Both the position numbers and the translations under genes were made by a program. From contig JAMORN010000150.1 in NCBI GenBank assembly GCA_027063545.1, positions 1 through 6,525 on the forward strand: a stretch of DNA of 6,525 nucleotides, read 5' to 3'. Under the pieces are notes generated by a model. It did not search any database, was not told the origin of the DNA, and saw only the letters and a program-made list of their open reading frames with translations. This stretch comes from JAMORN01 sp027063545 [NCBI: bacterium]. Lineage in GTDB: Bacteria; JAMORN01. This document shows positions 1 through 6,525 of this stretch, piece after piece (positions within the stretch are counted from its first letter, which is position 1; every line of letters starts with the position of its first letter).

Positions 1-423
1 GAGGGCAATTTATTAAGACTTACTCATTCTATTGAATTTACTCGTCAACAATATAGAAGATATGTAAGGTATGAAGTAAGATTACCTGTTAAATTTAAAA
101 TTCATTTATCAGAGAAAAAAAGAAAACCTGAAGAACTTCAAGAAATATATGATGGAAGTATTATTGATATATCAGGAGGAGGGGTAAAATTTAAATCTCC
201 AATACCTTTATATAAGAATGATCAAATATACATATATGGTATGTGGGATAAATTAGAACTAAAATTTATAGCAAAAGTTTTAAGAGTCGTAGAAACAAAA
301 ACACAGGATAAAGTATTTTATATTGCAAATTGTGAGTTTGTAAATATAGATACAAAAATTAAGGAAAAAATAGTAAAGAAAATTTTCGATAAGATGCGAG
401 AAGATATAAAAATGTTAAGATAA
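1..423 (+). CDS. PilZ-domain c-di-GMP receptor, YcgR-like, C-terminal part (5' end outside window)
   Basis: The frame is open from base 1 to a TAA at 421-423, giving 140 residues with no start, so the gene begins upstream of the window. Numbering from the edge, residues 19-23 read RRYVR, the arginine (RxxxR) motif of PilZ domains, and residues 56-61 read DISGGG, the D/NxSxxG motif. Both fall at the expected spacing in a beta-rich segment ending near residue 115, followed by a short charged helix. In this family the two motifs together bind a c-di-GMP dimer. The residues before the arginine motif (LTHSIEFTRQQY) resemble the junction between the N-terminal YcgR/YpfB-type domain and PilZ, so the complete protein is probably a two-domain cytoplasmic receptor; that part is inference. 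The dGTPase gene starts 8 bp downstream. The nearby pilus genes suggest a motility role, but its partner cannot be read from the sequence. Confidence 0.85.
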   Translation, partial: EGNLLRLTHSIEFTRQQYRRYVRYEVRLPVKFKIHLSEKKRKPEELQEIYDGSIIDISGGGVKFKSPIPLYKNDQIYIYGMWDKLELKFIAKVLRVVETKTQDKVFYIANCEFVNIDTKIKEKIVKKIFDKMREDIKMLR

Positions 424-2231: not shown

Positions 2232-3347
2232 ATGAAAGTTTTATGGGATATCCTACTAAATAGAACTTATACTGTTGGCATTGATATAGGATCCAGTATA
2301 TTAAAGTTGGTTCAGGTGCTTCATCAAAAAGATAAGGATATTTTAACATATTTAAGTATGAAGGAATTACCAGAAGGTGTAATAGAAGATGGGCAAATAA
2401 AAGATAGAGAAAAGCTATATGAGAATTTGGAAAGTCTAATAAGAGAAGCTGAGGAGTCTATAGGTAAAATAAAGAATGTTGTTTTCACAATAACAAGTTC
2501 TGTAAATAAAGGTATATTTATAGATAGGGTAGAGGATACTATATCCAAAAAAGAAGATATAACAGAATGGGTAAGTAATATAATCACTCAAAGAAATTAT
2601 GCCTCTGCAGAGGAGAATATAACTTTTGATTATAAAATTATAGATAAAGAGGCTTCTCCACAAGATGATACAATGAGAATAAAAGCTATAGTTGTAACAA
2701 TAAAAGATAGTATAGTTCATGGATTTGTGAATGTATTAAAAGATTTAGAAATTAATCCTATGGTTATGGATATAGAGCCGTTAGCTGTTTTTAATGTATG
2801 GTATGTACAAAAACTTCCGGAAGATTTAAATAAAGCGATAATGATAGTAAATATAGGAGAGGTAAATAGTGAGGCTATACTAGTAAATGGGGGAGAGTTT
2901 ATAACATCAAGAACAATGAGTGCTGGTACAGGAGCTTTTATAAGAGATTTACAGACAAATTTAAAGATATCAAGAGAAGAAGCTATTTCTATATTAAAAG
3001 GTGATTTACCTGATGGAATAGATGAATCGATCGCTGATGAGGTAGTATTCTATAATGCAGAGGAATTTACAGGAAATATTGATATGACCCTAAGGCATTT
3101 TAATAATGAGATTTTGAAAAAAGAGACAAATGTTCAAAAAATTGTATTAACAGGAGGGGGAGCAACAATATTTAAATTTGATAAATTTGTTGAAAGAAGA
3201 TTAAAAATACCAACACATATATTAAATCCTTTTAATTCTATTGAGATTGATGAGGATTTAGAAATAGATACAGAAGGATTAAAACAAATTTTACCATTGT
3301 TTACAACAGTAATAGGATTAGGTTTAAGAAGAATAGAAGAGGTATAA
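2232..3347 (+). CDS. pilM: Type IV pilus assembly protein PilM, actin-like ATPase
   Basis: PilM is a cytoplasmic FtsA/actin-fold protein that binds the N-terminal tail of PilN and links the alignment complex to the pilus motors. The 371-residue product is of normal family length. The phosphate-1 loop is VGIDIGSSILKL (15-26), the phosphate-2 region is IVNIGEVNSEAILV (205-218) and the adenosine motif is VLTGGGATI (305-313). SAGTGAFIRDL (230-240) and the C-terminal PLFTTVIGLGLR (355-366) also fit PilM. One oddity is N207 where relatives usually have Asp in the DxG of phosphate-2. No membrane segment is seen. The ATG at 2232 leaves the usual short leader before the first strand, and a weak purine-rich AAGAGAAG (2221-2228) precedes it. 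It is first in the pilMNO-pilP-like-pilQ cluster, behind the likely promoter, and pilN begins 6 bp after its stop. Confidence 0.95.
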   Translation: MKVLWDILLNRTYTVGIDIGSSILKLVQVLHQKDKDILTYLSMKELPEGVIEDGQIKDREKLYENLESLIREAEESIGKIKNVVFTITSSVNKGIFIDRVEDTISKKEDITEWVSNIITQRNYASAEENITFDYKIIDKEASPQDDTMRIKAIVVTIKDSIVHGFVNVLKDLEINPMVMDIEPLAVFNVWYVQKLPEDLNKAIMIVNIGEVNSEAILVNGGEFITSRTMSAGTGAFIRDLQTNLKISREEAISILKGDLPDGIDESIADEVVFYNAEEFTGNIDMTLRHFNNEILKKETNVQKIVLTGGGATIFKFDKFVERRLKIPTHILNPFNSIEIDEDLEIDTEGLKQILPLFTTVIGLGLRRIEEV

Positions 3348-3353
3348 TATAAA

Positions 3354-3989
3354 ATGGCAAAATCTAATTTATATTTTGAATTAAATTTATTGCCTTCAGA
3401 ATATGGCGGCGGAAAAAGGTACAGATGGATTAGGGGAGAGCAGGTTTTAATAGGTGCACTTTCTTTATTATTACTCTTTTTTATTTTTTATTTGAGTTAT
3501 GAGGATATGAATAATAGGATAGAAGAATTGGAATATAATATAAGTATTATAAATGCTCAAATAGAGGCAAATAAGGATATTAATATAAAGATTAAAAAGT
3601 TAAAAGAGAAAAAAGCTAAAATAATGAAAAAAATTAATGCTTTAAAACAGATTGATATAGATAGGGCTAAGTGGGTAAAACTTCTTGAGTTATTTGAAAA
3701 ATATTTACCTGATAATACATGGTTAACACTTTTAAAACAGGAAAAGACAGATTTAAAGAAAATTAGAGTAGAAGGTTTTACATATTCTTTTGATGCTATA
3801 GCCCAGTATATAACAGAATTAAATTCAGATACATTAGTATCTGATGTAAAATTGAATACAGTACTGCAAACAAAATATAGAAAAGAAGATGTATATAAAT
3901 TTGTTTTATATGTAATTTTAAAACAGAAAAAATTAGGACAGTTAGATGGAACTAAATTGGGAAACACTCAAACAGCCAAAAGTAATTAA
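3354..3989 (+). CDS. pilN: Type IV pilus inner-membrane protein PilN
   Basis: PilN is a bitopic inner-membrane protein that joins cytoplasmic PilM to periplasmic PilO and PilP. The short cytoplasmic tail carries FELNLLPSEY (8-17), matching the INLLP-type peptide that PilN inserts into PilM. A single transmembrane helix follows (about 30-48), then a coiled coil rich in E, I and K (about 50-100). A PilN-family ferredoxin-like domain spans about 104-191, including LPDNTWLTLL (118-127) and IRVEGFTYSFDAIAQYI (137-153). The 211-residue length is usual. A short polar tail (about 192-211) is encoded in DNA partly shared with pilO. The start is 6 bp after the pilM stop, with AAGAGG (3337-3342) 11 nt before the ATG, a slightly long spacing. 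Identification rests on motifs, topology and gene order together. Confidence 0.93.
   Translation: MAKSNLYFELNLLPSEYGGGKRYRWIRGEQVLIGALSLLLLFFIFYLSYEDMNNRIEELEYNISIINAQIEANKDINIKIKKLKEKKAKIMKKINALKQIDIDRAKWVKLLELFEKYLPDNTWLTLLKQEKTDLKKIRVEGFTYSFDAIAQYITELNSDTLVSDVKLNTVLQTKYRKEDVYKFVLYVILKQKKLGQLDGTKLGNTQTAKSN
3935..3938 (+). promoter_or_regulatory. Ribosome binding site that sets the pilO start inside pilN
   Basis: AGGA ends 7 nt before the ATG at 3946 and lies within pilN. It decides the pilO start: the next in-frame start codons (TTG near 4000) fall inside the membrane helix and would remove the cytoplasmic tail and half the anchor. Confidence 0.6.
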
Positions 3990-4530
3990 TTATTTAATTT
4001 TGGCTGTTATTTTGGTGATTTTGTCTTTTATGTATTATAAATTGGTTTATGTACCATTACAAATGAAAATAGCTTCGTTAGAAAAAGAGTTAGAAAAAAA
4101 GAGTAAAGAGCTTGAAACAATCAGAGAAATGAAAAAAAATCTTGTAAATTTACAAAATGAAGTAAAAAAAGCAGAAATTGAATTAGAAAAATTAAAATCA
4201 ATGTTCCCGGAAAAGAAAGAGGTTGCTAGATTAATGTTTGATATAACAAAGCTAGCAAAGTTTCATAACATAATGATAGTAAGATTTTTGCCTGTTGGTG
4301 ATATTACAAAACCTTACTATATGGAATATAAATATTCTTTAGAAGTTAAAGGTCGTTATCATAATCTTGGGGCATTTTTAGCTGATATGGCAAATTTGAC
4401 ATTGATAATAAATACAGATAAATTAGAGATAAAAGCATTGAATTTCAAGAATGTTGAAGATTTCGAAAATATAAATGAAACATTAAAAGCAAGTATGGAA
4501 ATAACAACATATTCATCAAAAAAAGAGTAA
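3946..4530 (+). CDS. pilO: Type IV pilus inner-membrane protein PilO
   Basis: PilO is a bitopic inner-membrane protein that pairs with PilN through periplasmic coiled coils and ferredoxin-like folds. The 194-residue product has a short cytoplasmic tail (MELNWETLKQPK), one transmembrane helix (about 13-36), a long charged coiled coil (about 40-87, with KEVKK/ELEKLKS-like heptads) and a PilO-family domain. The latter includes MFPEKKEVARLMFDI (86-100), a variable loop, YKYSLEVKGRYHNLGAFLAD (128-147) and a terminal strand MEITTYS (184-190). The reading frame overlaps the end of pilN by 44 nt. AGGA 7 nt upstream and the canonical N-terminal tail favour this overlapping start. The next gene begins 4 bp after the stop. 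The identification is firm from topology, domain signature and position after pilN. Confidence 0.93.
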   Translation: MELNWETLKQPKVINYLILAVILVILSFMYYKLVYVPLQMKIASLEKELEKKSKELETIREMKKNLVNLQNEVKKAEIELEKLKSMFPEKKEVARLMFDITKLAKFHNIMIVRFLPVGDITKPYYMEYKYSLEVKGRYHNLGAFLADMANLTLIINTDKLEIKALNFKNVEDFENINETLKASMEITTYSSKKE

Positions 4531-4534
4531 GGAT

Positions 4535-6331
4535 ATGAAAAGAATAGTAGTAATTTTTTTAATGTATTTTTTGGTGTTTAATCTTTCAATAAATGGGGGG
4601 AGGCTATCATCTATAGATATTGAAGAAAATGGTAATGTAGTTGTTAAGGTAAATTATGATTATTCTAAGGATGATATAGATAAATTAACCTATAAGAAGT
4701 TAAAAAAGCCTGATAGAATATTTATAGATTTTATTGATATTGATACAAATAATATAAAAAATTTTATAAGGAAATTTGAAAATACACAGGTGATAAAAGG
4801 TGTAAAATTATGGTATCACAAAGAGTTATTAGGAAATAAAAATGTATATAGATTTGTTATTGAATATGACAGAGATAAAGTTAAAAATTATAATATTGTG
4901 TTTTTAGAAAATAAGGTGGTATTAACTTTCTATCCTAAGAAAAATATAAAGAGTGAATTTTTTTGGAGTACAAATAAGAATAAAACTTATAATTTAGTAA
5001 AAGCAAATAAGAAAAAAGAATATAATATTTCATTAATAGATATAAGCTACTATAATGTTGGAGATTATCAGGATATAGTTTTTGAATTTAATGGGGATGT
5101 TCCTAAGTATGATATATTAAAAAATAATGATTCAGAAATATTATTAAAATTTTATTCAATAAAAAATTCTGTAGCATCTTATTCTAAAATATATCAATTT
5201 AAAAATTCAATATATGATATTATTGAATTTTTAGGAGAGGATAATGGAAATATAATGTTTAAGATTTCATTGGCACCTCCTAATACAATTAATAATGTAA
5301 ATATGTTAAGTATAGAAAGAGACAAAAAGCTTATAATAACTGGACAAGGAAAAACAGAAGTTAATGAGTATACATATTTAAACATAAAAAGAATATGGAA
5401 TAAATTAAAAGAAAAGTTACCTAGTATAAAAAATATTTCAATAGTAAATGAAGTAAAAGCTCAAGAAATAGAGGATTTAACAAGTATAAAAGAGCCTAAA
5501 GTAGAAGAAAAAACTGGAGAACAGAAAAAGTATATAGAGATAATAAAGGATTCAATTAACATAAGAAAAGGTCCAGGTATAAATTATGATATTTTAGCTA
5601 TAGGGTTAAAAGGGGAAAAATATGAGGTTGTAGGTTTTAAATTAGGATTCTATAAAATTAAGTATAAAGATGGAAGAATTGGTTGGGTATACATGAGTTT
5701 ATGTAAACCTTTATACGAGAGTGAATTGACAGGACCTGAATATATTGTTACAGGCAATAGAGTAAATTTAAGAAGGATTCCATCTTTAAAATCTAAAATT
5801 ATAAAGAGATTAAATAAGAATGATATAGTATACGTTTTAAAAGAAAAAGGTAAATGGGTTAAGGTAAAAACAGAGGATAATACAATAGGGTGGGTATATA
5901 AAAAGTTTATTAGAAATTATAAAGAAGCTCAACTTGAATCTATAAAATTGAATAAAGAAGCAAAATTAGCGAAGGATACAATTGGTTCAATTATATCTTC
6001 AAAAAAGAAAAAAGTAAAGTTTGTTGTTTATTCCAATAGAGATCCATTTTTACCAATTTTAAAAGAAGATTTAAAATTAGAGGGTGGACCAGAGGTTGAC
6101 AAATTAACATTAGTGGGTATAATATATGATAAATATGATAAAATAGCATTATTTGAGCTTAAAAAAGGTCCTAAAAGTGAAGGTAAAACGATATTTACAA
6201 TGAGAGAAGGTGATAAAGTAAAAAATGGTAAATTATTTAAAATATATGAGGATAAAGTAGTATTTTTGATTACTTTATTTGGCGTAACAAAAACATATAC
6301 TTTAAAATTAGAAAAGGACGATAAAAGATAG
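4535..6331 (+). CDS. PilP-type pilus protein fused to two AMIN-like and two SH3b domains
   Basis: This 598-residue exported protein sits where pilP normally lies. An N-terminal signal sequence or anchor (about 3-19, after MKR) lacks both a lipobox Cys and a clear AxA site. An AMIN-like domain spans about 24-134, with KLKKPDRIFIDFIDID (55-70) matching its P-x-R-hhhD core. A weaker AMIN-like unit spans about 165-270. A charged linker (about 285-331) leads to two bacterial SH3 domains, about 332-393 (INIRKGPGINYDI, IGWVY) and 403-461 (VNLRRIPS, IGWVY). After a basic linker (463-496), a PilP-like domain (about 497-593) shows SNRDPFLPI, LTLVGIIYD, REGDKV and KIYEDKVVFLI. In known systems PilP links PilN/PilO to the secretin's N0 domain, and AMIN and SH3b domains bind peptidoglycan or cell-wall partners; a wall-anchored connector is my inference. 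AGAG at 4524-4527 is a weak RBS. Usual PilP is about 170-180 residues. PilP assignment is moderately sure. Confidence 0.8.
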   Translation: MKRIVVIFLMYFLVFNLSINGGRLSSIDIEENGNVVVKVNYDYSKDDIDKLTYKKLKKPDRIFIDFIDIDTNNIKNFIRKFENTQVIKGVKLWYHKELLGNKNVYRFVIEYDRDKVKNYNIVFLENKVVLTFYPKKNIKSEFFWSTNKNKTYNLVKANKKKEYNISLIDISYYNVGDYQDIVFEFNGDVPKYDILKNNDSEILLKFYSIKNSVASYSKIYQFKNSIYDIIEFLGEDNGNIMFKISLAPPNTINNVNMLSIERDKKLIITGQGKTEVNEYTYLNIKRIWNKLKEKLPSIKNISIVNEVKAQEIEDLTSIKEPKVEEKTGEQKKYIEIIKDSINIRKGPGINYDILAIGLKGEKYEVVGFKLGFYKIKYKDGRIGWVYMSLCKPLYESELTGPEYIVTGNRVNLRRIPSLKSKIIKRLNKNDIVYVLKEKGKWVKVKTEDNTIGWVYKKFIRNYKEAQLESIKLNKEAKLAKDTIGSIISSKKKKVKFVVYSNRDPFLPILKEDLKLEGGPEVDKLTLVGIIYDKYDKIALFELKKGPKSEGKTIFTMREGDKVKNGKLFKIYEDKVVFLITLFGVTKTYTLKLEKDDKR

Positions 6332-6349: not shown

Positions 6350-6525
6350 ATGAATAAAAAGATTTTAATTATATTATTTGCTTTAATCTTTATACTTTCA
6401 TTCAAAAACTATATAAAGGCCCAAAGTAATCCAAATCCACAAGTCCAGAGAGGCTATTATGCAAATAAGCCTATCCCCAAAATAGAGTTTAATAATGCTG
6501 ATTTACAGTCTGTTTTAAGGGTTCT
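6350..6525 (+). CDS. pilQ: Type IV pilus secretin PilQ, N-terminal part (3' end outside window)
   Basis: Only the first 58 codons are present; the frame is open at the right edge. The product starts with a clear Sec signal peptide (MNKK, a hydrophobic core at about 5-18, then NYIKA before QSN, likely cut after A24). A short polar segment (25-43) follows, and then IPKIEFNNADLQSVLRV (42-58). This matches the start of the secretin/TonB short N-terminal (N0) domain that precedes the N1 and secretin domains in PilQ-type proteins. PilQ forms the outer-membrane pore through which the pilus passes. Position after pilMNO and a PilP-type gene supports the call. No AMIN domain can fit between the signal peptide and N0, unlike many PilQ proteins. 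A GspD-like secretin of a related secretion system is the main alternative, but the neighbouring genes favour PilQ. Confidence 0.8.
   Translation, partial: MNKKILIILFALIFILSFKNYIKAQSNPNPQVQRGYYANKPIPKIEFNNADLQSVLRV

Follow-up and report, generated by a model that had tools for sequence, protein, structure and literature searches.

Positions 4535-6331 of the window, the whole 6,525-nucleotide stretch of DNA analysed here, probably encode a type IVa pilus PilP in which wall-binding modules lie upstream of the secretin-docking domain, the wall anchor having shifted from PilQ to PilP. The identity of the protein as a PilP, judged from its sequence and its neighbours, is secure. The new point of general bearing is that AMIN domains were found by profile on PilP or on PilQ, and at none of 103 loci on both.

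Gene order at the pilus locus

The window is an entire contig (C150) of a genome with 355 contigs, 1.57 Mb in size and 82.7% complete. Its genes are, in order, one for a PilZ-domain protein, which is cut, one for an HD-domain protein, one for a 129-residue protein, pilM, pilN, pilO, the frame at 4535-6331 and the opening part of a presumed secretin gene. The pil genes lie on the forward strand. pilM occupies positions 2232..3347 (Pfam PilM_2, E 2.6e-34, with the PilM tree described below), pilN 3354..3989 (Pfam PilN, E 1.5e-12) and pilO 3946..4530 (Pfam PilO, E 2.7e-20), the last overlapping the end of pilN. The gene for the multi-domain PilP of 598 residues, assigned from domain profiles, Pfam and operon place, starts four bases after the pilO stop. 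The presumed secretin gene, pilQ (6350..6525), is read from its translation and is cut by the end of the contig. The 58 residues in view comprise a signal peptide and an N0-like stretch from around residue 44, which would leave no room for a preceding AMIN domain. This fragment aligns to the first positions of the secretin profile with an E of 4.3, which is not significant at so short a length.

PilT is present in the genome (512 bits). The Pfam PilP, secretin and 16S families gave no match there; as the PilP family also found nothing in any of 14 control genomes, and the genome is incomplete, these nulls are not evidence of absence. The PilZ-domain protein (window 1-423), cut at the start of the contig, lies near the pil genes and raises a possible link to c-di-GMP. 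Directly upstream of pilM are the HD-domain gene (432-1763), which we take to be dGTPase-like, and the gene for the 129-residue protein (1760-2149), which is hydrophobic near its N-terminus and matches no Pfam family.

Domain content of the window protein

Known PilPs are short lipoproteins. Those of Pseudomonas, Neisseria and Myxococcus (PF04351) share with the window protein its place, after pilO and before the secretin gene, and the C-terminal HR domain; they differ from it in that the window protein has no lipobox by pattern and carries AMIN and two SH3b domains ahead of HR. Their N-terminal part is described as flexible in the account of PMC5285504 drawn on here.

The Pfam PilP family itself does not match the window protein. 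PilP-domain profiles built without the window match residues 500-593 (6032..6313; E 2e-19 to 3e-16, Z=1000), the predicted secretin-N0 docking domain, which is preceded by a charged linker (5912..6031). Furthermore, a profile of an 84-member family, window included, matches five PilPs in the PDB: 3jc8 (E 2e-34), 2ivw (2e-12), 4av2 (1e-11), 2lc4 (9e-11) and 2y4x (4e-10). The claim that the C-terminal hundred or so residues are a PilP domain was thus upheld. The family was gathered in steps. The whole window protein was searched against 59 diverse genomes, none nearer to the window than the same domain (Bacteria), and matched 19 of them, mostly through SH3b domains of other proteins. Three matches were to PilP domains (G009, G058 and G025), each adjoining pilO and a secretin gene, and these together with the window formed profile A1, which matches 153 of 386 diverse genomes. 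From the A1 list 80 loci were picked by score, frame length and family, a non-random choice, and added to the founding four. A secretin gene follows the PilP gene in 78 of these 84 loci, and 51 of the 84 proteins match Pfam PilP (E 0.01). A pattern search of named genomes for close relatives turned up a single locus, in a Peptostreptococcaceae MAG, where the match was to an SH3b domain.

The protein begins with a signal sequence (residues ~1-21; 4535..4597), recognised by eye and lacking a lipobox by a crude pattern. The same pattern found a lipobox in none of 10 AMIN-bearing PilPs, in one of 19 Fibrobacterota-like PilPs and in merely 13 of 42 PilPs encoded beside AMIN-bearing PilQs, and the lipobox is thus no reliable requirement for a PilP.

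AMIN domains were sought with a profile made from the N-terminal domains of seven other PilPs, the window excluded. It matches PilQ AMIN domains of other genomes with E down to 1e-23, and a profile of nothing but the 56 PilQ rows it collected matches the AMIN domains of PilPs with E down to 7e-22. These reciprocal matches indicate that both are the same domain. In the window protein, unit 1 (residues ~21-136; 4595..4942) is an AMIN domain by profile: two window-free AMIN profiles match it (E 8e-5 and 1.4e-3), as does the PilQ-only profile of 56 rows (E 5e-4), its HMM score is reached by none of 2000 shuffles, and hhalign aligns it to AMIN at 93% where 40 shuffles reach at most 7%. Pfam AMIN (PF11741) gives an E of 0.25 with the protein, under the cut-off. 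Unit 2 (residues ~159-276; 5009..5362) is weaker. Its AMIN-profile score is equalled by 42-66 of 2000 shuffles; its score against the second-unit profile of relatives is reached by 3-4 of 2000, with hhalign giving just 3-4%. It is a probable second AMIN by position only, lying where the relatives have theirs.

The two SH3b domains are borne out by Pfam. SH3_3 (PF08239) matches at 83.8 bits against a curated cut-off of 27 (E 9.1e-24) over two stretches, the better being 409-459, and our own SH3b profile, whose seeds include the two window copies, places them at residues 332-390 (5528..5704) and 402-459 (5738..5911). The motif IGWVY, to which the original prediction had drawn attention, is present in both. 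That prediction had read the protein as a signal sequence, two AMIN-like units, two SH3b domains and a PilP domain. The signal sequence (by eye), the first AMIN, both SH3b domains and the PilP domain stand, the second AMIN being only probable from profiles and shuffles; the HMM-HMM comparison it had proposed likewise bore out the first unit and failed to bear out the second. The structure prediction it had also called for was of no help. Single-sequence models of residues 21-280 and 478-598 were poor (pLDDT 46.5 and 42.3), and Foldseek returned nothing significant for either. Among the non-significant ranks for the former, 4aqz, the B2 domain of N. meningitidis PilQ, stood sixth (E 0.26) and M. 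xanthus PilQ seventh; for the latter there was no PilP among the best 50 matches listed.

Related proteins in a Fibrobacterota-like phylum

The layout is not unique to the window. In genomes G089, G229 and G358, which form one family of the survey, PilP consists of an AMIN-like unit, a lysine/alanine-rich stretch, a further AMIN-like unit, an SH3b domain and the PilP domain. The PilP domain occurs in 113 of 120 genomes of the phylum of G358, and most frames among the matches listed exceed 500 residues. This phylum is very likely Fibrobacterota, a naming that rests on the 93 matches to Fib_succ_major (PF09603) in G358 when set against Table 4 of PMC4704652; other members tested had 11, 4, 3, 0 and 0, and a Bacteroides control also matched. 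That table gives TIGR02145 counts of 17-119 in eight genomes listed as Fibrobacteraceae or Fibromonadaceae; two further genomes have 0 and 41, and bacteria average 0.1.

A sample of 39 Fibrobacterota-like genomes was assembled from the 30 best-scoring loci, six more picked to broaden the range of families, and the three genomes of the first survey. An SH3b domain precedes the PilP domain in 32 of them (E<0.01), some of the matches being weak and some in truncated loci, and the remaining seven have none. G388 has two SH3b domains, the layout of the window itself, and is the sole such case of the 39. With the same SH3b profile none was found in the PilP frames of the other loci scanned, the window excepted. 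On 10 of the long PilPs (E 0.01) Pfam recognised only SH3 families, in nine of the 10 and above a curated cut-off in four, and PilP or AMIN in none. By hhalign, profiles of unit 1 and unit 2 built from 12 of the proteins align to AMIN at 82-94%; shuffled columns do not exceed 3%, and the HR and SH3b controls stay at 0.2-0.3%. A secretin gene follows the long PilP gene in 16 of 17 first-copy loci, with none in view at L202. Separately, three genomes encode a second, short PilP-like frame of 164-190 residues away from the long one (L203 in G408, L204 in G440 and L205 in G394).

Fibrobacterota-like PilPs such as those of G388, G408 and G440 resemble the window protein in having two AMIN units (the second of the window being probable), one SH3b domain or in G388 two, a PilP domain and a short PilQ next to it (presumed for the window, from the part in view). 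They differ in that their N-terminal sequences have no detectable similarity to that of the window: BLAST gave nothing significant, hhalign gave 0.1-0.2% for the first AMIN of the window against their unit 1, and at most 4% for the N-terminal part of the window against their unit profiles. The window lineage is placed by a PilM tree only, of 26 rows, in which it groups with the Fibrobacterota-like phylum with a support of 98/100; positions inside and beside the phylum are not separated, and the window PilM has a long end branch (2.57) and a deviant letter make-up. Thirty genomes were tried for this tree; G125 had no PilM match, and G155, G025, G470 and G237 were omitted as partial, split or interrupted by a stop. 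The window protein has, by profile, the AMIN, SH3b and HR order of the Fibrobacterota-like architecture, and its lineage has PilM kinship to the bearers of that architecture. As far as profiles can tell, the AMIN-SH3b-PilP layout occurs widely in one phylum, very likely Fibrobacterota, and the reservation in the original prediction that it might be common in one phylum was apt.

AMIN domains on PilP or on PilQ

To call AMIN domains, the profile built without the window was applied (E<=0.01) to 123 loci, a non-random choice, of which 18, the window included, have no PilQ in view and two no PilP-domain match. Among the 103 loci with both PilP and PilQ in view, 11 have AMIN on PilP alone and 47 on PilQ alone; 45 have it on neither protein, and none has it on both. 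The first set of 84 loci had given the same picture (PilP 10, PilQ 42, neither 26, both 0, with six lacking PilQ). In the 10 AMIN-PilP loci of that set N0 starts 23-51 residues into PilQ, which leaves no room for an AMIN. The survey of architectures across genomes that had been suggested thus yielded, beyond the phylum above, AMIN-PilPs without SH3b in eight further families (G009, G136/G274, G157, G297, G151, G003/G291, G294/G006 and G125). These resemble the window protein in having AMIN at the N-terminus of PilP and an AMIN-less PilQ (the latter presumed for the window), and differ from it in having a single AMIN and no SH3b that could be found by profile, several of them with a long low-complexity linker. 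In AMIN-bearing PilQs the domain is the same as that of PilP, the anchor there being on the secretin and not on the connector.

The 45 loci with AMIN on neither protein comprise 18 Fibrobacterota-like loci, the locus of G297 and 26 others without a known AMIN anchor. Many Fibrobacterota-like loci fall into this class because the profile misses most of their AMIN domains: PilQ is in view in 16 of the 17 first-copy loci, and 15 of those 16 were scored as having neither. In all 16, N0 starts merely 33-65 residues past the PilP stop. At three further loci scored as neither (L135, L136 and L143) the secretin core starts 247-672 residues past the PilP stop. In G297 the PilP is cut at the start of its contig and was scored without AMIN; the AMIN sits at the end of another contig (E 1.2e-19) beside the same repeat-rich linker, as expected from its clade.

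In a secretin tree of 100 loci, made by a quick method, 21 of 22 AMIN-PilPs fall in one 31-row clade (SH-aLRT 94) that contains no AMIN-PilQ. AMIN on PilP requires five changes on this tree, at least two of them forced by starred branches. When AMIN on PilP was compared with AMIN on PilQ by independent pairs, two supported pairs were found (five when all branches are counted), with p 1. The idea of many independent AMIN swaps was rejected on this ground, there being merely two supported independent pairs. As the AMIN-PilPs lie mostly in one deep clade, few independent events stand behind the exclusion, which is not shown as a repeated outcome. The pattern may represent one old transfer and a small number of later or separate ones rather than a recurrent rule.

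Two members of the AMIN-PilP clade deserve mention. The PilP of G058 (L023, 5623-6489) belongs to this clade yet has no AMIN; it carries a C-terminal SPOR domain (Pfam E 9e-15), a fusion of PilP to a wall-binding module of a different type. G144, also in the clade, has no recognised wall module. Elsewhere in the survey PilP takes other forms. At L112 (G258), PilO and PilP seem by eye to be fused in one frame, and one protein among the 84 PilPs has a Pfam PilO match. The PilP frames of L125 (G102) and L128 (G369), around 500 residues long, contain a large additional segment ahead of the PilP domain that by eye resembles a beta-propeller, and those of L097 and L126, around 320 residues long, have an additional N-terminal segment that looks folded and by eye resembles NTF2.

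Proposed role and alternatives

In the mechanism we propose, the C-terminal HR domain would bind N0 of PilQ, the segment just upstream of it would bind PilN/PilO, and the AMIN unit or units together with the two SH3b domains would hold the connector PilP on peptidoglycan. The usual site of the anchor would be the N-terminus of PilQ, as in most surveyed pili in which an AMIN was found. For P. aeruginosa, PMC5285504 describes AMIN domains of PilQ that bind peptidoglycan and position the inner-membrane complex by way of PilP, and in M. xanthus polar recruitment requires the PilQ AMINs, according to parts of PMC10653833. In the window lineage and its relatives AMIN is on PilP and PilQ appears to begin almost at N0. 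The wall anchor thus seems to have passed from PilQ to PilP, a change of partner for what would anchor the machine and mark its place, with the SH3b domains added afterwards in the Fibrobacterota/window lineage. A role for PilP as the wall anchor would fit the occurrence of AMIN on PilP only where PilQ has none. We see about an even chance that, in a deep clade including Fibrobacterota and the window lineage, PilP took over from PilQ as bearer of the wall anchor and place-marker, with SH3b domains as reinforcement.

Hydrolases and scaffold proteins can likewise contain SH3b and AMIN domains, and SH3b domains can bind proteins. The protein might then be a PilP whose AMIN/SH3b part is a spacer or a protein platform, for instance one that recruits a wall hydrolase to clear a path for the pilus. 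The seven of 39 Fibrobacterota-like genomes without SH3b by profile would agree with this, as would the unrelated or low-complexity N-terminal parts of several surveyed PilPs. Against a spacer or platform speak the finding of AMIN on PilP only with an AMIN-less PilQ, and G058, where a PilP of the AMIN-PilP clade that lacks AMIN has a SPOR domain in its stead; we regard this explanation as rather unlikely.

The two remaining alternatives concern what the protein is. In the part of PMC9239104 that bears on it, the type II secretion protein OutB both binds secretin N0, through an HR domain, and is attached to the wall. Of the 84 family members, 14 match Pfam T2SSC and one matches T2SSB (E 0.01); the window protein could on these grounds be a scaffold of the GspB/OutB kind and not a pilus PilP. 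The likeness stops there, as OutB has a single transmembrane segment and attaches to the wall through a C-terminal extension, not through AMIN or SH3b (PMC9239104, same part). The gene lies within a pilMNO operon and not in a gsp context, PilT is encoded in the genome, and the family profile prefers PilP structures (2e-34 against 7e-4 for GspC), with the majority of members matching Pfam PilP as noted above. This identity was already disfavoured and is highly improbable. Similarly, a simple PilP might be encoded elsewhere and the frame at 4535-6331 be an additional factor, as the incompleteness of the genome allows and as the second, short PilP-like proteins of some Fibrobacterota-like genomes might suggest. 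The PilP-domain profile finds a single match in the 82.7% of the genome that is represented, namely this frame, which agrees with the earlier expectation that no separate pilP exists. Moreover, the frame fills the pilP slot from pilO to the secretin start, and in the relatives it is the long form that the secretin gene follows at every first-copy locus except L202. A second PilP is accordingly very doubtful. A PilP that carries the wall anchor of the pilus itself is the reading we retain.

Significance

No description of a PilP with AMIN or SH3b was found in such openly available full-text literature as was covered, and none is given in the portions used here of PMC9239104, PMC5285504, PMC4619616, PMC4704652 and PMC10653833. 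Among the type IV pilus genes of Fibrobacteres, Table 4 of PMC4704652 lists PilM, PilN, PilO and PilQ and has no row for PilP. The failure of Pfam PilP and AMIN on all 10 of the long Fibrobacterota-like PilPs may explain this missing row.

The distribution of AMIN suggests that anchoring can pass between two partners of one machine. It also hints at the place of the wall anchor in some pilus machines with an AMIN-less secretin. In a survey of 10 species, as reported in part of PMC10653833, AMIN on PilQ goes with polar pili and its absence with pili over the whole cell surface, apart from three exceptions; counting PilP could change tallies of this kind. If the proposed shift is true, pili with an AMIN-less PilQ would not be unanchored, and the prediction of pilus sites from the AMIN domains of PilQ would have to count PilP too.
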